This document shows positions 6,264 through 46,315 of a DNA stretch of 64,000 nucleotides, piece after piece. Positions within the stretch are counted from its first letter, which is position 1; the number at the start of each line of letters is the position of its first letter. The DNA is from Verrucomicrobiales bacterium. GTDB taxonomy: Bacteria > Verrucomicrobiota > Verrucomicrobiia > Verrucomicrobiales > DEV007. Made by a program: the position numbers and the translations under genes. A model generated the notes under the pieces. That model was not told the origin of the DNA and did not search any database. It was given only the letters and a program-made list of their open reading frames with translations. The stretch covers positions 62,001 to 126,000 of the forward strand of contig PAAG01000046.1 of the NCBI GenBank assembly GCA_002698785.1, in the 5' to 3' direction.

Positions 6264-9200
6264 ATGGCACGCAGCGCTCCTCAAAAGTTTGCGGCAATAT
6301 CCTGTGGGGTATTGGTGCTCATTGTGTTGTGCTTTTATTTTACGCTAAAAAACACTGATCAGCCCGAGCAATCGCCCGCTCATTCGCAGTCGAATCCCAT
6401 TGAGCACGCCGACTCAGAAACAACCAAAGGCGCACAACATGAAAAATTGGACGGCGCGCCTGATGTGGAAACCACCAATCCACCGGTAACAACATCGAAG
6501 ACACTCGCCGAAACGGATTCAGAGACTTCAAGTTCCAGCAAGGATTTCTGGGAAGATCTCCAAATCGAAGAAGTCCCAACCCTCGCCTCCGCTCCATTCC
6601 GGGCTCTTTTCACTGCCGAAGTCGGACAGTTGGTAGAACTCCCGCTCTCTCCCCCTCTATCCGCTGAGGTGACCATGAACCACAATCATGAGAACGGTGC
6701 ACGAGTTCTCGGACTGAAGCTGACCGACTTCCCCGAGACCACCGCTTCCCTGAAGATTGACACCAATGAAGTACTGACCGGCATGCTTCTTTCGAGAAAG
6801 AGTCCGGAAGTTCTTCAATTCAGAGAACGACGCTCGAACAGCGAAATTCACCTTTCCACAACATCCGTCGACAAAGTTATCTGTAGCCGCTTCGACGGTG
6901 GCAATCTTCTTCCCGGGTTGCCTTCTGCTCCTGCCGCAGCGGCCGCTGCCGAAGGCGCTCCTAAGGAACTTGCAGAGGCGGGTGGGTCCATCCCCCTCTT
7001 AGAAAGCCTTCCCAGTGCACCAAAAGTAATCTATCTCGATTTCGATGGGGAATATGTCGACGGGACCGTTTGGAACACGAACCACAACAACGGAGATCCA
7101 ATCAATGCCGCAGCGTACGGATCTACAGGTGATGTTGAATCAATCTGGAAAAGTGTCTCCGCTGATTATCGCGTCTTCAATGTGAACGTCACTACGGATC
7201 GGTCTGTCTTTGACGCGACAAATACCGCCGATCGTTGCATGGTAATTTTTACTCCAACACAGAGTTGGTATTCAAACACAGCTGGAGGAGTCGCATACAC
7301 CAACACCTTTGGTGACGAGACTGATTACATGTGCTGGGTCTTCAATTCAGGAATCAACCTGGCTTCGGAAGCAGCAAGCCACGAAGTTGGTCACCAACTC
7401 GGCCTGACTCATGACGGGACCAGTATAAAAGAATACTACTCCGGTCATGATCACTCAGGAACCGGTATCAAATGGGGGCCCATCATGGGCAACGCCTACT
7501 ACAGGGACATTGTTCAGTTCTCGAAAGGAGAATATGCCGATGCAGATAACGACGAGGACGATTTCGCCGAGATCGATACCTTTCTCGACATTCGGACCGA
7601 TGAATTTGGTGACACGATCGCTACGGCATCCGGCCCCGGAGAAGATTCCCCGGGAGCCATCAACATGACGGGCGTGATCGAAACGCAAGACGACATCGAT
7701 GTCTTTCGAATCGAGACCGGTGGCACAGGAGATATTTCCCTCACCTTACTTACTGATGCGTATACGAATCTGGACACTCATCTAGAGCTTCTCGACTCAG
7801 GCGGTTCGGTAATCGCCGAAGCAAATCCCGCAGATGATTTTGAAGCAACCCTTGGAGTCACAAACCAACCTGCCGGAGTCTATTACATTCGCGTAGAAGG
7901 AGTCGGGCTCGGAACGGCATCAGACGGCTACACAGACTACGGTAGTGTCGGTGAATACGTTCTCTCCGGAGGCTATGTGCCTGATGCGGGTCAGGTAGCC
8001 CCAGATACACCTGCATATATCACCGCGACGGATGGAGAATCCGAAACGGACATCACCGTCTCCTGGACACCATCTGCGGGAGCAACTAGCTATCTCCTGT
8101 ATCGTTCGACATCCGACTCAAGCGGAACAGCATCACTAATCGCTGAGGTAGTGGGTACCACTTACGCTGACTCGACAAACCTGGTGTTGGAAACGTCCTA
8201 TTACTACTTCGTGAAAGCAAAGAACTTCGCCGGTGAATCCGCATTCTCCTCCAGTGACAGCGGGTTTACATATGCTTCCTTTGGAGCACCCACTGGAGTC
8301 TCTGCCACGGATGGTGAGCCTCAGATCACGATAACGTGGAATCCCGTATCCGCTGCGGTTGATTACGGGATTTATCGCTCTACCTCGGACAACCTCTCCG
8401 GTGCTGTCAACATTGCGGTCACAACAGATACTGAGTATGTCGACACAACAGCCGCGCTGGACACCTACTATTATTACTGGCTCGATTGCTCCAACGCTCA
8501 AGGTGGCCTCTCGGACTTTTCGGAGTCGGATCGCGGACATCGATCCAACCTCTCACTTGATCCTCCGGCGACGATTTCCGCAACCGATGGCGACCACTCC
8601 GACAAGGTCACAGTGACTTGGGCTGCGTCGACGAACGCCGCTTCGTATCAGATTTTCCGAGGATCGACCACCAACTCTGGCGATGCTTTCCTACTCACAG
8701 AAACCTCCAACCTGACGTACGAAGACACCTCGATTGCACTGGATACCATCGCCTACTACTTTGTTCGGGCGAAGAACGGATCGACCTTCTCCGACTTCAC
8801 CTCCGCAGAACCGGGACACCGAACCTATCCAGTTCCGAGTGTTCCCACCAATGTCACCGCAACCGATGGAACGGTTTCCAATCGTATTGACGTAAGTTGG
8901 TCCGCATCGGCAGATGCTACCGGATATTACATCTACCGCGCCACCTCAGACTCGTCTGGATCAGCGATTCAAATCGATTCCACGTCTTCGACCACCTATT
9001 CTGACACAACTGCATCTGCAGGCACGACCTACTACTATTTCGTCAAGGCTTACAACCCGAGCAACGAATCTGACTTTTCTGCAAGTGACAGCGGAATCTG
9101 GAACCTCCCCCCTCCACCTGTGCCCACCAATGTCTCAGCAACTGATGGAGTGTTCTCCGACAAAGTTGGCATCTTCTGGGGAGAATCTACCAATGCTGAT

Positions 9201-12200
9201 GGATACCGCATCTATCGTTCTGTATCCGACTCCAGCGACGGCGCATCCCTTCTCGCCACGTCCCCTCTCACATCATACGCAGACACAACGGCTACGCCTG
9301 GAGTAACCTACTACTATTTTGTGAAGGCCTACCGAGGCGCGACAGAATCTGATTTCTCGCTAAGCGATGCCGGCTTTATTCGGCCACCTGCACCAGCTAC
9401 TCCGACTTCGCTTTCCGCATCCGATGGATCTTCCACAGATCACGTCACGATCACATGGCAGCAGGCCAATTACGCCACTGGATATCGAGTATTCCGATCT
9501 CAGACCAATGATGCTTCCGGAGCCAGTGAAATAGCAGACGTCACTGGATTGACTCACAACGACACGACTGCGGTCCCCAATGTCACCTACTACTATTTCG
9601 TCGAAGCTTACAATGGCACCGGAACCTCCGCTCGATCATCGGGAGAATCCGGATTCCGCCAGCTAGCCCCACCTGCTACCCCAGCGAATCTCTCCGCTAC
9701 GGATGGTGCCCATCCCGATAAGATCGAGGTTTCATGGTCCTCTTCAGCGAATGCGACTGGCTATCACCTGTATCGTTCACTGACCACATCGATCAACGAT
9801 GCAAGCGAAGTCGCCGATACAACTTCTACCTCGTTCACAGATACGCAGGTCTCTGCTGAAACCTCCTACTACTACTTTGTTCGGGCGTACAATGGAGGTG
9901 GAAGCTCTTCGTTCAGTGGATACGAGGTCGGACATCGGCTTGCCAATCCACCCGCAGTCCCCACAAATCTTTCGGCAAGTGATGGCACCAGTTCCGCTCA
10001 TATTGAGGTCACATGGTCCCCCGTTTCCGGCGCCGATGGATACCGACTCTATCGCGGAACGACGAATATTTCTGGCGACGCCACCGAAATCCACGACCTG
10101 TCTGGCACCTCCTTCAACGACCCGAATGTCGCACCAGACACAAACTACTACTATTTCGTCTCCGCTTACAACAGCGAGGGCGAATCCGACTTGTCCGCTC
10201 CTGATGTCGGTCAGCGGTTGGCAACCCCGCCCGCCATTCCGAACAACCTCTCCGCAAGCGATGGAACAAGCTCGGAACATATCGCTGTTTCCTGGTCATC
10301 CGTTTCCGGCGCTACCGGATACCGGCTCTATCGCGGAACGACGAATGTTTCTGGCGATGCTATCGAGATCCAGGACTTGGCTGGCACCTCCTTCAACGAC
10401 GCGGATGTCGCACCAGACACAAACTACTACTACTTCGTCTCGGCATACAATGGTGAAGCCGAATCAGACCTTTCCGTACCCGATGTCGGTCAACGCCTCC
10501 CGAATCCACCTTCAGTTCCAACCAATCTCTCCGCTAGCGATGGAACAAGCCAGGATCATATCGCAGTTTCCTGGTCTTCGGTGAGTGGCGCGACCGGCTA
10601 CCGACTCTATCGCGGAACGACGAATGTTTCTGGCGATGCTATCGAGATCCAAGACTTGGCCGGCACCTCCTTCAACGATACCGATGTGGCACCAGATACG
10701 AACTACTACTATTTCATCTCAGCTTACAACGACGAAGCAGAATCGGACTTGTCCGCTCCTGATGTGGGGCAACGCCTGCCAAATCCGCCTGCGGTTCCCA
10801 CAAATCTCTCCGCTAGCGACGGCACAAGCATGCTTCACATTGAAGTGTTATGGACCACTGCGACCGGTGCCACTGGATACAGGCTCTACCGTGGAACGAC
10901 AAATAATCCAGGAGGTGCAGCCCTGATAAAGGACCTCACAGGAACTTCTTTCAACGATCCTGACGTCTCAGCAGATACGGATTATTTCTACTTTGTTTCG
11001 GCTTACAATGACGAAGCCGAGTCAGACCTTTCTTCTCCAGACTCGGGCAGCAGACTTCCGAATCCCCCAGCCACTCCCGCAAACCTTTCAGCCAGCGACG
11101 GAAGTTCAGCCACTCATATTGAAGTCACTTGGACCTCTGTCGTCGGGGCGACCGGTTACCGACTTTATCGAGGAACAACCAACGTCCCCGGTGATGCAGC
11201 GGAAGTCGCTGATACTAACGGAACCTCATACGAAGACACAGAAGTCTCTCCAAACACCGATTACTACTACTTCGTCTCGGCCTACAACGACGAAGCCGAA
11301 TCAGACCTCTCTTCTCCGGACGTCGGGCATCGACTCCCGAACCCTCCCTCAATACCAACAAACCTCTCTGCCAGCGACGGATCAAGCAAGACGCAAGTAG
11401 AAGTGTCATGGTCCTCTGTTTCGGGAGCGGATGGTTACAGACTGTATCGCGGGTCCACGAACATTCCCGGCGAAGCCACTCTGCTGCAAGACCTCGCCAG
11501 CACCTCTTTCAACGATACTGGTGTAGATGCAGAAACGAACTACTACTACTTCGTCTCATCCTACAACGCAGAAGCGGAATCTGAACTCTCGACTCCAGAC
11601 GTCGGACATCGCCTGGCAAATCCTCCTGCAATTCCTTCTTCTATCTCGGCCAGTGATGGCACCAGTACACTGCAAATTGAAGTATCCTGGTCCACTTCGA
11701 CAGGAGCAACGGGGTATCGCCTTTATCGCGGAAACACCAATGTTCCGGGTGACGCCGAAGAAATTGCCGACGTTCCGGGCTCTTCTTACAACGACTCGAA
11801 TGTCTCTCCGGACATTGACTACTACTACTTCGTCTCAGCTTACAACGACGAGGCCGAATCTGACCTCTCATCACCAGATGTTGGCCAGCGACTTCCTAAC
11901 CCACCGGCAATCCCAGCAAATCTCTCCGCGAGTGATGGCACCAGTAAAGTTCACATTGAAATCAGCTGGGGTCCTGTTTCCGGGGCAAATGGATATCGAT
12001 TGTATAGAGGTTCTTCCAACGTGGCTGGCGAGGCCTCGCAGATAGCCGATATCCCCGGCACTTCTTTCAACGACTCGAATGTCTCAGCAGACACGGACTT
12101 TTACTATTTTGTTTCGGCTTACAATGATGAGGCCGAATCAGAACTCTCCTCTCCCGAAGTCGGGCACCGACTCCCACAACCACCACCTGTTCCCTCTTCG

Positions 12201-15200
12201 ATCTCTGCCAGCGATGGAACGAGCAAAACGGAAATCACTGTCTCCTGGCCAAGTTCGACTGGCGCGACGGGATACAGATTGTATCGAGGAACGTCTACTG
12301 TGCCCGGCGAAGCCGTTCAAATCGCAGATCAATCCGGAACATCCTTCAGTGACACTGACGTGTCTCCGAACACGGACTACTACTACTTCGTCTCGGCATA
12401 CAACAACGAGGCAGAATCAGACCTGTCTGCTCCTGATGTCGGTCAACGCCTCCCGAATCCACCTCCAGTTCCCACAAATCTCTCCGCTAGCGATGGAACA
12501 AGCCAGGATCATATCGCTGTTTCCTGGCCCTCTGTGAGTGGAGCGACTGGATACAGGCTCTACCGTGGAACGACAAATATTCCTGGGGATGCAGCCCTGA
12601 TAAAAGACCTCACAGGAACTTCTTTCAACGATACTGACGTCTCAGCAGACACGGATTATTTCTACTTTGTTTCGGCTTACAATGACGAAGCCGAGTCACC
12701 CCTTTCTTCTCCAGACTCGGGCAGCAGACTTCCGAATCCCCCCGCCACTCCCGCAAACCTTTCAGCCAGCGACGGAAGTTCAGCCATTCACATCGAAGTC
12801 ACCTGGACCTCTGTCGCCGGAGCTACTGGTTACCGCCTCTACCGCGGCACAACAAATATTCCCAGCGGAGCTTCGGAGATCGCAGATCTTCAGGGGTTGT
12901 CATTCATCGATTCTGAAGTCGATCACAGCACCAGCTACTACTATTTCGTGTCCGCCTACAACACGGAAGCAGAGTCCAACCTATCGTCACCGGAAGTAGG
13001 GCATCGCCTTCCGAATCCCCCAGCCGCTCCCGCTTCCATATCCGCGAGCGATGGTAGCGCTGCCACACATGTTTCCGTCACTTGGCCGGCAAGCGCCAAC
13101 GCCACGGGTTACAAGCTTTTCCGAGGCACAACCAATGTGGCCTCAAACGCCAGCCAGATTGCCGATATTGCTGGGACATCCTTCAACGATACAGACATCG
13201 ATCCAGACACCACTTATTACTACTTCGTTGCCGCCTACAACACGGAAGGCGAATCCGCACGCTCGATCGATGATTCCGGATATCGCAACTCCGCATTGCC
13301 CGATACTCCCACGTCGATCAGTGCATCCGATGGCACCTCGACGACCCAAATTCAAATTAGCTGGAGCACTTCCACATCGGCAATTGGCTACAGGCTTTAT
13401 CGTTCGGAAAGCAGCCTCTTCAGTGGCGCTGTGCAATTGCAGGACTCGGCAGTGACGTCTTACACCGATACGTCGGTAGATCCGCACAAGACCTATTACT
13501 ACTTCGCGACAGCTTACAATAACGATGGAGAATCTCCACCAACGGCTGGAGATCCTGGACACATCATCCCCCCCACACCATCTGCGCCCGGTTCGATCTC
13601 CGCTTCGGACGGAACGCATACGACTCATGTCGAGGTGTCCTGGCAATCTGTTGATCACGCAGATGAATATCGACTCTACAGAGCCACGACGAACAATCCA
13701 TCACTCGCTTCTAACATCGCTTCTGTGTCTGGCACGACATACGACGACTCATCGGCTGCGACAGACGTGGAATACTTCTATTTCGTCAGCGCATACAACG
13801 AGGGAGGAGAATCATCCAAGTCACAGGGCGACTCCGGTTTTCGTGCCGCCGAGATTCCTGACACGCCGGCAACGATTTCGGCGTCGGACGGCACTTCCAG
13901 CGAATCAGTTTCCGTATCGTGGTCAGCGAGCTCCGGGGCGGCCGGGTATAGGCTGGTCCGGTCTCTTACCGATTCCCCACTCGACGGAGAAGAGATAGCC
14001 GACCAAACTCAGACTTCTTTCGAAGATTCAAGTGCTGCAGCGGATACTACTTACTACTACTTCGCCCTCGCATACAGTTCTGGTGGTTCATCTGCCTTTA
14101 CCGCCGGAGAAAGAGGATATCGCAATGCAGAGATCCCTGAGAAGCCAACGGGACTAACGGCTTCTGATGGGGATTCTACAGATCATGTTCTACTCACTTG
14201 GAACGCATCCGCTCGAGCAGCAACCTACAAAGTCTATCGCTCCTCAAATGAAGCGGGAACCGACATTCTGCTGCTCGATTCGACTGCTGCCACAACATTC
14301 CTCGACCTCACGGCAAATCACGAGACCGAATACTACTACTTCGTCGCCGCCCACAACTCAGGTGGAGATTCTCCACTTTCGGATAGCGACATCGGATTCA
14401 GGGCTCCACCTGTCCCGTTGACTCCGACTAATCTTTCGGCATCGGACAACACACCTTCGACGCACGTGGCCATATCATGGGATGCCTCGACATGGGCGAC
14501 CGGGTATCGGCTCTATCGATCCATCTTCCCCAATGGTTCGAACAAAGTGGAGATTGCAGACACCGCTGACCTCTCTTTTGAAGACACAACAGCTGAATAT
14601 GACCAGACTTATTACTACTTCGTTCTGGCTTACAATACTACGGGCGAATCCTCGCTCTCAGTTGCAGAATCGGGGCTCCGCCAAACACCAGCCCCTTCCG
14701 CTCCCACGTCAGTGACAGCGACCGACGAAGAGTCAGGAACCATTCTGATCAGTTGGGAACCTGTCGAATTTGCAGAGGGCTACTACGTCTACCGAAACAC
14801 ATCGAATACGACAGACGGAGCCACCCAAATTGCTTACGTCACCGGAGAGACATCCTACGAAGATACCTCCGCCGTTCAGGGAGAAACCTATTTTTACTTC
14901 GTAGTTGCGTCGAACTCCACCGGCGACTCCGACTACAGCACAAGCGATTCCGGGACTCGTCCGAATGTTCCGGATCCCCCAACCTCTCCTACTGGAGTCG
15001 CCGCAACCGAGGGAACCTTTGAAGGAGCTATCGAAGTGAGCTGGGCAACCATTGCCGGCGCGGAGGAATACCTCGTCTACCGAAACACCATCGATGACTT
15101 TGATTCGGCGACTCTTGTCGAAACCACTCCACTTCTCTCTTACTACGATACCGATGTCGTAGAAGACACAGTCTACTTTTACTTCGTCGTGGCGAGAAAC

Positions 15201-16082
15201 GCGACAGGTGATTCCCTCCCTTCGGCGGGAGTGTCAGGATACGCAGGCCTTCCCGAAGTGCCCGATGACCGATACGAGGAGAACGACAGTAAGGAAGAAG
15301 CCTATTCTCTCAGTGCAATCGAAGAGATCTGGCTCTCCAGGCACGCTGGCCTGGGTATCGCCGCCGACGAAGACTGGTACAGCCTGACATTACAACCGGC
15401 AAAAACGAGAATCGAAATCATCGTGATGCCCCTGTCACCGCAAGTTCCCATAGAAATCATCTTGTTCGACGAGGAAGAGAACGAACTCGCCACAGCGACT
15501 CCACTTGCCACCGGCTCGATCCTTTCTTATGACCTGGCGGCAGCAAAAGAGAATTACTATCTCCGCATTCGACCAACCACATCGGATACGACATCATATG
15601 ACCTGATCTGGAAAGGCTTGGAATCGGGAGAAATCGGCAACCGCCCCGACATGACAATTGGCCCGAAGCCTCATCGCCAGATTGGACAGCAACACTACAA
15701 CACCAAGGGCCGAGGGCAGACGATCAAAGACAAAGTAAAAGGAAGAAAAGCAGGGAAAGTCTTTTTCAAAACTCTGAACGAAGGCGTTGCACCGGTGAAA
15801 CTCACTTCCTACGGAAATCAGCCGGATCTCTACTTTGATCTAAAATACATCGCCCCCGGCACTGGCAACGTCACTGCTCAAATGGCTACGGGTAGGTTCA
15901 ACCGTAGGCTCCTCCCCCTCGCAACGGACATGATCAAATTGAAAGTGAAAGTCACTCGACATGGTTCGACGCGCCGAAGGAAGATGATTGCTTACACGAC
16001 GAGCACGATAAATAACGATCCGTCCACAACTGACGTTGCTCGATACAAGTTCAAGGCTATACCAAAGAGAAAGAGAAGGTAG
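6264..16082 (+). CDS. Giant exported metalloprotease with 26 fibronectin-III-like repeats and two PPC-like domains
   Basis: 3272 residues in one open frame. Order of parts: N-terminal hydrophobic anchor or signal (about 11-31); acidic Ser/Thr/Glu-rich linker; a region of unknown fold; a zinc metalloprotease domain (about 250-440) with HEVGHQLGLTHDG, giving His373, Glu374, His377 and His383 of a metzincin HExxHxxGxxH site; a pre-peptidase C-terminal (PPC)-like domain (about 460-575); 26 FN3-like repeats of about 93 residues (about 580-2994); a second PPC-like domain (about 2995-3118); and a basic tail ending KRKRR. The repeats suggest a long stalk presenting the protease or an adhesive surface. 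No sortase, type IX or autotransporter signal is recognisable. No clear Shine-Dalgarno precedes the ATG. Substrate unknown; surface protein digestion, adhesion or predation are possible. Confidence 0.9.
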   Translation: MARSAPQKFAAISCGVLVLIVLCFYFTLKNTDQPEQSPAHSQSNPIEHADSETTKGAQHEKLDGAPDVETTNPPVTTSKTLAETDSETSSSSKDFWEDLQIEEVPTLASAPFRALFTAEVGQLVELPLSPPLSAEVTMNHNHENGARVLGLKLTDFPETTASLKIDTNEVLTGMLLSRKSPEVLQFRERRSNSEIHLSTTSVDKVICSRFDGGNLLPGLPSAPAAAAAAEGAPKELAEAGGSIPLLESLPSAPKVIYLDFDGEYVDGTVWNTNHNNGDPINAAAYGSTGDVESIWKSVSADYRVFNVNVTTDRSVFDATNTADRCMVIFTPTQSWYSNTAGGVAYTNTFGDETDYMCWVFNSGINLASEAASHEVGHQLGLTHDGTSIKEYYSGHDHSGTGIKWGPIMGNAYYRDIVQFSKGEYADADNDEDDFAEIDTFLDIRTDEFGDTIATASGPGEDSPGAINMTGVIETQDDIDVFRIETGGTGDISLTLLTDAYTNLDTHLELLDSGGSVIAEANPADDFEATLGVTNQPAGVYYIRVEGVGLGTASDGYTDYGSVGEYVLSGGYVPDAGQVAPDTPAYITATDGESETDITVSWTPSAGATSYLLYRSTSDSSGTASLIAEVVGTTYADSTNLVLETSYYYFVKAKNFAGESAFSSSDSGFTYASFGAPTGVSATDGEPQITITWNPVSAAVDYGIYRSTSDNLSGAVNIAVTTDTEYVDTTAALDTYYYYWLDCSNAQGGLSDFSESDRGHRSNLSLDPPATISATDGDHSDKVTVTWAASTNAASYQIFRGSTTNSGDAFLLTETSNLTYEDTSIALDTIAYYFVRAKNGSTFSDFTSAEPGHRTYPVPSVPTNVTATDGTVSNRIDVSWSASADATGYYIYRATSDSSGSAIQIDSTSSTTYSDTTASAGTTYYYFVKAYNPSNESDFSASDSGIWNLPPPPVPTNVSATDGVFSDKVGIFWGESTNADGYRIYRSVSDSSDGASLLATSPLTSYADTTATPGVTYYYFVKAYRGATESDFSLSDAGFIRPPAPATPTSLSASDGSSTDHVTITWQQANYATGYRVFRSQTNDASGASEIADVTGLTHNDTTAVPNVTYYYFVEAYNGTGTSARSSGESGFRQLAPPATPANLSATDGAHPDKIEVSWSSSANATGYHLYRSLTTSINDASEVADTTSTSFTDTQVSAETSYYYFVRAYNGGGSSSFSGYEVGHRLANPPAVPTNLSASDGTSSAHIEVTWSPVSGADGYRLYRGTTNISGDATEIHDLSGTSFNDPNVAPDTNYYYFVSAYNSEGESDLSAPDVGQRLATPPAIPNNLSASDGTSSEHIAVSWSSVSGATGYRLYRGTTNVSGDAIEIQDLAGTSFNDADVAPDTNYYYFVSAYNGEAESDLSVPDVGQRLPNPPSVPTNLSASDGTSQDHIAVSWSSVSGATGYRLYRGTTNVSGDAIEIQDLAGTSFNDTDVAPDTNYYYFISAYNDEAESDLSAPDVGQRLPNPPAVPTNLSASDGTSMLHIEVLWTTATGATGYRLYRGTTNNPGGAALIKDLTGTSFNDPDVSADTDYFYFVSAYNDEAESDLSSPDSGSRLPNPPATPANLSASDGSSATHIEVTWTSVVGATGYRLYRGTTNVPGDAAEVADTNGTSYEDTEVSPNTDYYYFVSAYNDEAESDLSSPDVGHRLPNPPSIPTNLSASDGSSKTQVEVSWSSVSGADGYRLYRGSTNIPGEATLLQDLASTSFNDTGVDAETNYYYFVSSYNAEAESELSTPDVGHRLANPPAIPSSISASDGTSTLQIEVSWSTSTGATGYRLYRGNTNVPGDAEEIADVPGSSYNDSNVSPDIDYYYFVSAYNDEAESDLSSPDVGQRLPNPPAIPANLSASDGTSKVHIEISWGPVSGANGYRLYRGSSNVAGEASQIADIPGTSFNDSNVSADTDFYYFVSAYNDEAESELSSPEVGHRLPQPPPVPSSISASDGTSKTEITVSWPSSTGATGYRLYRGTSTVPGEAVQIADQSGTSFSDTDVSPNTDYYYFVSAYNNEAESDLSAPDVGQRLPNPPPVPTNLSASDGTSQDHIAVSWPSVSGATGYRLYRGTTNIPGDAALIKDLTGTSFNDTDVSADTDYFYFVSAYNDEAESPLSSPDSGSRLPNPPATPANLSASDGSSAIHIEVTWTSVAGATGYRLYRGTTNIPSGASEIADLQGLSFIDSEVDHSTSYYYFVSAYNTEAESNLSSPEVGHRLPNPPAAPASISASDGSAATHVSVTWPASANATGYKLFRGTTNVASNASQIADIAGTSFNDTDIDPDTTYYYFVAAYNTEGESARSIDDSGYRNSALPDTPTSISASDGTSTTQIQISWSTSTSAIGYRLYRSESSLFSGAVQLQDSAVTSYTDTSVDPHKTYYYFATAYNNDGESPPTAGDPGHIIPPTPSAPGSISASDGTHTTHVEVSWQSVDHADEYRLYRATTNNPSLASNIASVSGTTYDDSSAATDVEYFYFVSAYNEGGESSKSQGDSGFRAAEIPDTPATISASDGTSSESVSVSWSASSGAAGYRLVRSLTDSPLDGEEIADQTQTSFEDSSAAADTTYYYFALAYSSGGSSAFTAGERGYRNAEIPEKPTGLTASDGDSTDHVLLTWNASARAATYKVYRSSNEAGTDILLLDSTAATTFLDLTANHETEYYYFVAAHNSGGDSPLSDSDIGFRAPPVPLTPTNLSASDNTPSTHVAISWDASTWATGYRLYRSIFPNGSNKVEIADTADLSFEDTTAEYDQTYYYFVLAYNTTGESSLSVAESGLRQTPAPSAPTSVTATDEESGTILISWEPVEFAEGYYVYRNTSNTTDGATQIAYVTGETSYEDTSAVQGETYFYFVVASNSTGDSDYSTSDSGTRPNVPDPPTSPTGVAATEGTFEGAIEVSWATIAGAEEYLVYRNTIDDFDSATLVETTPLLSYYDTDVVEDTVYFYFVVARNATGDSLPSAGVSGYAGLPEVPDDRYEENDSKEEAYSLSAIEEIWLSRHAGLGIAADEDWYSLTLQPAKTRIEIIVMPLSPQVPIEIILFDEEENELATATPLATGSILSYDLAAAKENYYLRIRPTTSDTTSYDLIWKGLESGEIGNRPDMTIGPKPHRQIGQQHYNTKGRGQTIKDKVKGRKAGKVFFKTLNEGVAPVKLTSYGNQPDLYFDLKYIAPGTGNVTAQMATGRFNRRLLPLATDMIKLKVKVTRHGSTRRRKMIAYTTSTINNDPSTTDVARYKFKAIPKRKRR
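8001..15246. repeat. Array of 26 tandem FN3-coding repeats, about 279 bp each
   Basis: In-frame repeat array within the giant protease gene. Each unit opens with a P-x-[NST]-[LIV]-[ST]-A-[ST]-D-G motif, has a central GYRLYR-like strand, and closes with YYYFVSAYN and an ESDLS-like turn. Units 8-18 (about 9960-13028) are the most alike at both protein and DNA level; units at both ends have diverged. Spacing in the central block is exactly 279 bp: unit 10 starts at 10518, unit 11 at 10797 and unit 17 at 12471. The pattern indicates expansion by unequal recombination. This is a protein-domain array; the units contain no spacers. Confidence 0.93.
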
Positions 16083-45115: not shown

Positions 45116-45460
45116 ATGATGAATCGTCGCGTTGCCTCGGGGGTCGGTTTTCTTTCTGCTATTACATTTGCACTTCTCCTCCCCCAAACGGACGGAATTG
45201 CTTCAAACTGCAAGATACCCATGAAAGACCTCGCAAAAATTCGCGGCAAAATTCAGTTCGTCACTTCATTCCCGGACTACAAGGTTCAAGTTGTAGACTC
45301 TTTCGCAGATCTCCATGTCCAGAAAGTCACGAGCTTTCCTGACGGCCCGGGAAAATGGCAGATCGTGGACAGCTTCCCCGACTACAAAATTCAGATCGTG
45401 GACAGCTTTCCCGATTTCAAAATCAAGTATGTTACCAGTTTCCCCGGGGTACAGAATTAG
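45116..45460 (+). CDS. Small exported protein with six 11-residue repeats
   Basis: 114 residues (ATG at 45116 or 45119). A hydrophobic N-terminus (about 8-30) suggests a signal peptide. From about residue 44 the protein consists of about six 11-residue units of consensus K-[IV]-Q-x-V-[DT]-S-F-P-D-[YF], for example KIQFVTSFPDY, KVQVVDSFADL and KIQIVDSFPDF; one unit has a three-residue Gly-Pro-Gly-type insert. Alternating polar and hydrophobic residues with a turn at SFPD suggest a small beta-meander or solenoid. I recognise no named family. It is divergent from the fasciclin gene, which may mean a shared role at the surface. Confidence 0.7.
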   Translation: MMNRRVASGVGFLSAITFALLLPQTDGIASNCKIPMKDLAKIRGKIQFVTSFPDYKVQVVDSFADLHVQKVTSFPDGPGKWQIVDSFPDYKIQIVDSFPDFKIKYVTSFPGVQN

Positions 45461-45526
45461 CGAAGCTTCCTCAGTTGCTCGCTTGCGAAACCCCTGCACT
45501 ACGTGTCCAGTAGGGCTACCCCCCCT

Positions 45527-46315
45527 ATGGATCGATCTGAAAACCTCTCGAAGTTTCTCCAGTCCGACGGACGCACCGTCATACTCCCCATCGACCACGG
45601 CACTGCCATTCCTGTCCCTGGGATGGAAGATCCTGTCGCCTTGATCGAAGAAGTCAGCCCAGTGGTAGACGGCTTTGTCGTCAATCTGGGTCTGGCTCTC
45701 GCAGCCGCCGACGCACTCGATGACAAAGGCCTGTGTCTGCGCACAGACGTTTACAAGCCTCGCTACGGTGACAATATCGACGAGGGTGCCTATCGCATCT
45801 ACGGAGCCGACGAAGCCCTGACCGTAGGTGCCAACGCGATGATGAACATGCTCTACACTCATCATTCGAATGAAGCAGATATCACACGTGAAGCAGCCGA
45901 ATTGGTTGGAGAGAGCCTTGAAGTCGACGTCCCGGTGATCTTGGAAGCGCTTCCCTTTGGAATCGGGCGACCTTCCGATTACACCCTCGAAAACATCGGC
46001 TTCACCGTTCGCATGGCCGCGGAACTCGGGTCCGACATTGTAAAAACAGCTTACCCCACCGGCGCCACTTCCGACGAATTCAAAGCTATCGTCGATGCCT
46101 GCTTTGTTCCTGTGATCGTCCTTGGCGGAGCTGCCATGGGTGACGACTCAGCACTGCTCGGTATGGTAAAAAATGCAATGAACGCAGGAGCAGTTGGCGT
46201 CGCCGTAGGCCGCAACGTCTGGCAACATCCCCAGCCGAAGAAGATCGCAGCTGCACTTCACTCCATCGTTCACGATGAGGCGAGTGTAGACTCCGCGCTA
46301 AAACATCTCTCGTAG
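45527..46315 (+). CDS. DhnA-type class I aldolase (fructose-bisphosphate aldolase/LsrF-like)
   Basis: 262 residues from the ATG at 45527; a GTG at 45503 would add 8. A TIM-barrel Schiff-base aldolase: TVILPIDHGTAIPVPGMEDP near the N-terminus is the DhnA-family opening, IVKTAYPTG carries the probable Schiff-base lysine, and the phosphate-binding end is VIVLGGAAMGDD plus GAVGVAVGRNVWQHP. Members cleave fructose bisphosphate or related keto-phosphates; the precise substrate is not fixed by sequence. The next gene (radical SAM) starts 70 bp later on the same strand. Confidence 0.87.
   Translation: MDRSENLSKFLQSDGRTVILPIDHGTAIPVPGMEDPVALIEEVSPVVDGFVVNLGLALAAADALDDKGLCLRTDVYKPRYGDNIDEGAYRIYGADEALTVGANAMMNMLYTHHSNEADITREAAELVGESLEVDVPVILEALPFGIGRPSDYTLENIGFTVRMAAELGSDIVKTAYPTGATSDEFKAIVDACFVPVIVLGGAAMGDDSALLGMVKNAMNAGAVGVAVGRNVWQHPQPKKIAAALHSIVHDEASVDSALKHLS

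Follow-up and report, generated by a model that had tools for sequence, protein, structure and literature searches.

A mosaic FN3-like unit in the repeat array of a giant, putative metzincin-like protease gene of a Verrucomicrobiales bacterium, probably formed by recombination within the gene

Repeats inside proteins evolve in concerted as well as birth-and-death modes, as described in a general account (PMC2267704). Periscope Proteins are bacterial surface proteins whose stalks differ in length, and intragenic recombination was proposed to alter their repeat number (PMC8201768). The present analysis concerns a long repeat array in a giant gene of a Verrucomicrobiales bacterium (assembly GCA_002698785.1), situated in 64,000 nucleotides (nt) of contig PAAG01000046.1 (positions 62,001 to 126,000, forward strand), which are referred to as the window. 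The open reading frame (ORF) at 6264-16082 (plus strand, as are all coordinates of the gene; 3272 amino acids, aa) encodes a putative metzincin-like protease carrying 26 fibronectin type III-like (FN3-like) units. Unit 17 of this array (12471-12749) is a mosaic of sequence similar to units 10 and 11. It represents a common kind of recombination, among the repeats of a single gene, in an array far longer than those of the homologues examined.

The gene resembles proteins with intragenic recombination and concerted evolution of repeats (PMC2267704) in its mosaic units, its homogenised centre with diverged edges and its in-register exchange, yet differs from them in its mild and old homogenisation, with a median core pair near synonymous saturation. 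With Periscope Proteins (PMC8201768) it shares a long tandem array of beta-sandwich units behind an N-terminal functional domain, whereas Periscope arrays consist of highly identical repeats whose number varies among similar strains, and adjacent core units of the window gene feature 63-84% nt identity. The mean for neighbours amounts to 68.5% in the core and 58% across units 3-25, so that the highly identical DNA repeats characteristic of Periscope Proteins are lacking here. Among the literature matches listed, judged by titles and the beginnings of abstracts, general accounts were found and none on this gene or on FN3 arrays in such proteases. The general view remains unchanged, as recombination of repeat arrays is already known. 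Nevertheless, the locus offers a clean example of exchange between non-adjacent repeats of one bacterial gene, with one breakpoint placed to within a few bases and a tract of about one unit, and it helps to explain how an extended FN3 stalk with a homogenised middle can arise where relatives possess three or four units.

The array occupies positions 8007-15260 and was delimited by a profile built from its own units and by PF00041; the own profile recovered the same 26 units that had been counted in the initial annotation. Units 3-24 measure 279 bp each, unit 2 measures 276 bp and unit 25 measures 285 bp. Accordingly, the columns of units 3-24 were compared directly, with unit 25 included ungapped and hence out of register. 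The core, units 8-18 (9960-13028), shows 61-89% nt identity among its members, and pairs involving units 3-7 or 19-25 reach 33-61% (unit 25 ungapped and out of register). The centre of the array was probably homogenised in the past, with the edges having escaped this process. The starts of units 10, 11 and 17 at 10518, 10797 and 12471 had been given correctly, as had the resulting offsets of 1953 and 1674 bp. The suggestion that offsets of exactly seven and six units point to a mechanism is trivial, however, because all of units 3-24 are 279 bp long and any in-register match is a multiple of this length.

The mosaic was most clearly resolved by a 3SEQ-type exact test (own implementation) covering 10,626 ordered triples of units 3-25, with exact p values calculated only for those 235 triples that a prescreen had retained. 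The top triple has unit 17 as the child of units 10 and 11 (m, n, k = 22, 65, 56; p 2.8e-8) and is significant after Bonferroni correction for the number of triples (3.0e-4), as expected of an intragenic recombinant. The only other triples below 0.05 after correction are two orders of one trio, ranking second and third, with unit 10 as the child of units 17 and 8 (0.036 and 0.046). The informative sites of unit 17 are mainly 10-like at nt 24-75 and mainly 11-like from nt 78 onwards, which confirms the switch in the DNA that had been noted initially. It persists if solely synonymous differences are regarded, i.e., codons with an equal residue in units 17, 10 and 11 (six 10-like and 38 11-like sites; p 6.5e-4). 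All six 10-like synonymous sites lie at nt 24-75, and just nt 3 and 6 of the 38 11-like ones precede nt 78. In addition, the unit 17 tract contains exact DNA runs of 48, 43 and 42 nt shared with units 11/12 and one of 41 nt shared with unit 10.

A GARD-like scan of units 8-18, the kind of breakpoint test foreseen initially, preferred two trees over one by a difference in the corrected Akaike information criterion (dAICc) of 122 and placed the optimal breakpoints at nt 69-81. The signal at nt 75 amounts to 116.7 with all 11 core units, 75.0 without units 12 and 18, and 59.8 without unit 17; in a core lacking units 12, 17 and 18, the best breakpoint shifts to nt 183 with a signal of 32.1. This decrease upon removal of units indicates that much of the breakpoint signal originates where the tract begins and ends, in units 17 and 18. 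When the codon columns of units 3-24 were permuted 2000 times in a GENECONV-like test, the 11/17 pair was supported (global p 0.017). In the tree of the 3' part, unit 17 is joined with unit 11 at a bootstrap of 100, and a grouping of 17 with 10 is rejected by the approximately unbiased (AU) test (2e-52).

The exchanged stretch extends beyond unit 17 on both sides. The end of unit 16 together with the 5' part of unit 17 (12429-12545) is identical in 106 of 117 nt to 10476-10592 in units 9/10 (synonymous divergence, dS, 0.33), and the 3' part of unit 17 together with the 5' part of unit 18 (12546-12816) is identical in 257 of 271 nt to 10872-11142 in units 11/12. The switch between the parents falls at nt 75-78 of unit 17. 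The maximum-likelihood (ML) tract against units 11/12 spans nt 76-346 in unit-17 coordinates and is 271 nt long (support for the start 73-82, for the end 312-353 and for the length 237-278, with a looser limit of 234-290); it ends at about nt 67 (33-74) of unit 18. The continuation of the match into units 18 and 12, as described in the initial annotation, is thereby borne out, and units 12 (11076-11354) and 18 (12750-13028) are similar chiefly at nt 3-67, where the tract tails off. Both ends of the 11/12-like tract fall at nearly equal repeat phase, which makes it about one unit long; a length of 279 lies just outside 237-278 and within the looser 234-290.

Outside these limits, the similarity falls to about background, as found for other pairs of the core. 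Unit 16 matches unit 9 at 66.2% over 237 nt upstream of nt -42, and units 9 and 10 at 66-68%; upstream of nt -97, the identity with unit 9 is 61.5% (112/182). Beyond nt 342, units 18 and 12 share 67.6% over 216 nt. With identities of 95% (3') and 91% (5') inside and 66-68% outside, the mosaic is a patch that covers roughly 390-440 bp, and long flanks were not exchanged along with it. The position of the breakpoint is not accounted for by greatest unit similarity alone, as the most conserved 27-nt stretch lies at nt 186-212 and nt 73-99 form a lesser peak.

Unit 17 is probably the product of intragenic homologous recombination among tandem FN3 units, by conversion-like copying into units 16-18 in one event with a template shift. 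The most economical sequence of steps would be non-reciprocal copying (gene conversion), in which a first stretch would have been copied from the end of unit 9 and the start of unit 10, after which the template would have shifted by one unit near nt 75 and units 11 and 12 would have supplied about 271 bp, nearly the length of a unit. Units 17/18 would have been the recipient, presumably by means of the ordinary homologous recombination of the cell, and a single event with a template shift would be assumed rather than two. As the flanks are at background, conversion-like copying fits better than a plain out-of-register crossover; thus, of the two mechanisms proposed initially, crossover or gene conversion, recombination between repeats of a conversion-like kind is favoured over the simple crossover. 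The divergence of the two parts does not differ significantly, neither for all sites (Fisher p 0.18) nor for synonymous sites (8/30 vs 8/66; p 0.086), which allows a single event.

Nevertheless, several observations weigh against this explanation. There is a 2.5-fold difference in dS between the 5' and the 3' part, and two separate events would fit this as well. Unit 17 contains exceptions to the switch, which are 11-like at nt 3, 6, 60 and 63 and 10-like at nt 110, 114, 119, 135 and 163. The upstream edge of the 9/10-like stretch is blurred, with an ML extent of nt -94 to 122 and support of -101 to -32 for the start and 47-123 for the end. The tree of the 5' part favours 17 with 10 at a bootstrap of just 51, and a grouping of 17 with 11 is unrejected there (AU p 0.18 for nt 1-75 and 0.077 with 42 more nt upstream). 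Likewise, the 10/17 pair reached a global p of 0.38 in the GENECONV-like test (pairwise 0.0005), and the 9/10 pair one of 0.069. Furthermore, a set without units 9, 17 and 18 keeps its best breakpoint at nt 75 (dAICc 26.1), so that part of the signal at this phase does not come from the unit 17 tract; signal values of 26-32 show the level produced by other exchanges or uneven rates. Hence, the 11/17 (3') half of the mosaic is firm, and the 10/17 (5') half is weak if taken alone and draws mainly on the combined triple test. Finally, trees and triples allow both directions of the event.

The latter point leads to the strongest competitor, a reversed direction, which we regard as a tentative yet serious option. 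According to this, unit 17 and the start of unit 18 are older and intact, units 11/12 received the tract from them, and unit 10 is a hybrid with a 17-like start, the rest of which was homogenised with units 8 and 9. The second and third ranks of the triples that make unit 10 the child speak in its favour. Of the initial claim that unit 17 is a recombinant of units 10 and 11, the mosaic relation stands, and the role of unit 17 as the recombinant is probable. Units 8-10 further possess an exchange trace of their own, visible as similarity at an offset of one unit in units 8, 9, 10 and the start of 11 (10014-10829): positions 10014-10550 match 10293-10829 over 537 nt at 82.5%, which is a second and separate sign of duplication or conversion at a local scale. 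Over nt 76-177, units 9 and 10 also reach 92.2% identity (dS 0.33). However, the reversed direction demands that the end of the 10/17 similarity near nt 75 (support nt 47-123) be a coincidence. Over nt 76-279, moreover, units 9 and 10 (84.8%, dS 0.82) have diverged further from each other (Fisher p 4e-4) than the partners of the 17/11 tract, so that homogenisation of the whole 3' part of unit 10 was not the younger event.

A different origin of the 3' part is rather unlikely in our estimation, albeit worth mentioning because of the nearly equal phase of its start and end: the 11/12-like tract could be a single unit-length cassette that was inserted or swapped as a whole, e.g., a one-unit circle from units 11/12 that re-integrated at unit 17. 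If this were true, the array would have grown partly by scattering single units six units away and not only by tandem duplication of neighbours. A coherent pre-event unit, either the start of 17 with the end of 18 or the start of 11 with the end of 12, was sought in order to separate insertion from replacement, and the resulting identity differences of a few percent were not decisive.

It is improbable that units 9-12 were duplicated as a block to units 16-18, or that a reciprocal unequal crossover took place, with subsequent divergence. Such an event would account for the similarity at an offset of six units, which extends over 959 nt at 78% (units 9.5-12.95 vs 15.5-18.95), but the contrast between tract and flanks makes an event of a single age impossible unless most of the block was overwritten later. 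An artefact in the assembly of the repeat array is less probable still. The genome is a draft of 60 contigs with a contamination estimate of 4.97 and repeats are hard to assemble, yet the longest exact repeat in the array, at 48 nt, is shorter than ordinary sequencing reads, and unit 17 contains sites unlike either partner. Selection or convergence at the protein level is very unlikely: FN3 units share conserved residues and conservation is uneven along the unit, but the switch is present at synonymous sites and the exact DNA runs argue strongly against it for the 3' part.

Regarding its age, the 17/11 exchange (dS 0.13 for nt 76-342) is younger than any other that can be seen in the core. The next closest whole-unit pairs are 9/10 (dS 0.81) and 8/9 (dS 1.06), and the median core pair has a proportion of synonymous differences (pS) of 0.74, near saturation. 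Measured against the dS typically found between strains, the exchange would nonetheless appear old. The dS of 0.13 (3') and 0.33 (5'), together with a core near saturation and the limited identity of its neighbours, leave the earlier characterisation of the array as actively remodelled unsupported; the data rather fit an episodic and old homogenisation.

Counterparts of the gene were sought in 56 genomes (its own and 55 relatives), with the array as query in the 33 genomes listed for the genus (own included), in a scan of genome contigs and in 386 genomes drawn from the order, among them again its own (matches at E up to 1e-60 and at most three candidates scored per genome), and a close ortholog was found in none of these searches. 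The contig scan yielded one locus with 35% identity, and the best identity of the protease part besides the window gene was 53% over a partial length (56- and 386-genome searches). From 20 fetched stretches, 16 ORFs featured the protease part (14 from the genus, including two from the own genome, and two from other families of the order) with 35-52% aa identity therein. Four FN3-like units occur in 11 of these homologues, three in two, one in a single homologue and, by the profile of the array, none in the remaining two, which are both of the non-genus ORFs, one of them truncated where the fetched stretch ends; contig ends truncate two ORFs with four units on the N-terminal side. The other four ORFs carry 6-8 units each and did not match the protease part at E 1e-8. 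Two ORFs of the own genome with eight FN3-like units each (L052 and L053, on contigs C9 and C60) lack a match to the protease part of the giant protein.

A 17-row tree built from the protease part groups the giant protein with two three-unit proteins, a paralog from the same genome and one from genome G028 (support 90/84, long branches). The unit order of eight four-unit arrays is kept across genomes, with 43-50% aa identity at the same position and 30-39% between positions. A positional origin of the 26 units was searched for by comparing each of them with these eight and two three-unit arrays (10 of the 13 homologues with three or four units), and a clear counterpart did not emerge. Within-array identity at the DNA level is at most 56% in 14 of 17 other arrays and 66-73% in the remaining three (L062, L063 and L066). 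The latter constitute a separate clade of homologues (1767-1840 aa) in which two FN3-like units share this identity, which hints at a similar exchange or duplication in another array. An array of 26 units with a homogenised core was found exclusively in the genome of the window among those examined. Further giant ORFs with the protease part occur across the order (eight fetched, 2323-3572 aa). The FN3 profile of the own array detected no unit in seven of these eight (L070 and L072-L077; 2323-3316 aa, other families of the order), and the stretch of the eighth (L071) contains 6753 N among its 12501 bases.

The encoded protein comprises, in order, an N-terminal hydrophobic segment (recognised by eye), a metzincin-like protease domain, a PPC-like domain, the 26 FN3-like units and a C-terminal part, for which the profile search gave no family match. 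Metzincins are defined by the zinc-binding motif HExxHxxGxxH/D, and this pattern is present as HEVGHQLGLTHD at residues 373-384 (7380-7415), which we take to be the zinc site, followed by PIMG (7479-7490) as a candidate Met-turn. Pfam Reprolysin_3 scored a marginal 23.3 bits at residues 323-384 with the N-terminal part alone (cut-off 22.4) and 20.7 bits, below the cut-off, with the whole protein. The PPC profile reached 25.8 bits in the N-terminal part, just below its cut-off of 25.9, and a comparison with the PDB gave a weak resemblance to karilysin (E 0.012). Based on the zinc motif, the marginal Reprolysin_3 match and the PPC score near its cut-off, the designation as a putative protease seems reasonable. 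The fn3 family PF00041 was detected in the whole protein with 314.8 bits in 14 stretches, and unit 17 by itself scored 25.4 bits (cut-off 25). Judging from the domain content alone, the FN3 stalk most likely keeps an exported or surface protease at a distance or binds its substrate. Besides, an NCBIfam search of 6264-7990 matched residues 11-149, before the protease domain, to a biofilm-associated metzincin protease inhibitor at 21.4 bits (cut-off 180), possibly reflecting a propeptide resemblance and probably due to chance.

Ten neighbouring ORFs were scanned and include DUF1552, PSD/PSCyt, sulfatase, 3-keto-disaccharide hydrolase and Gfo/Idh/MocA proteins, a set that presumably points to the Planctomycetota-Verrucomicrobiota group. 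Elsewhere in the window, a 33-bp tandem duplication (two copies, 90% match) at 45359-45423 overlaps an ORF on the minus strand (45266-45865).

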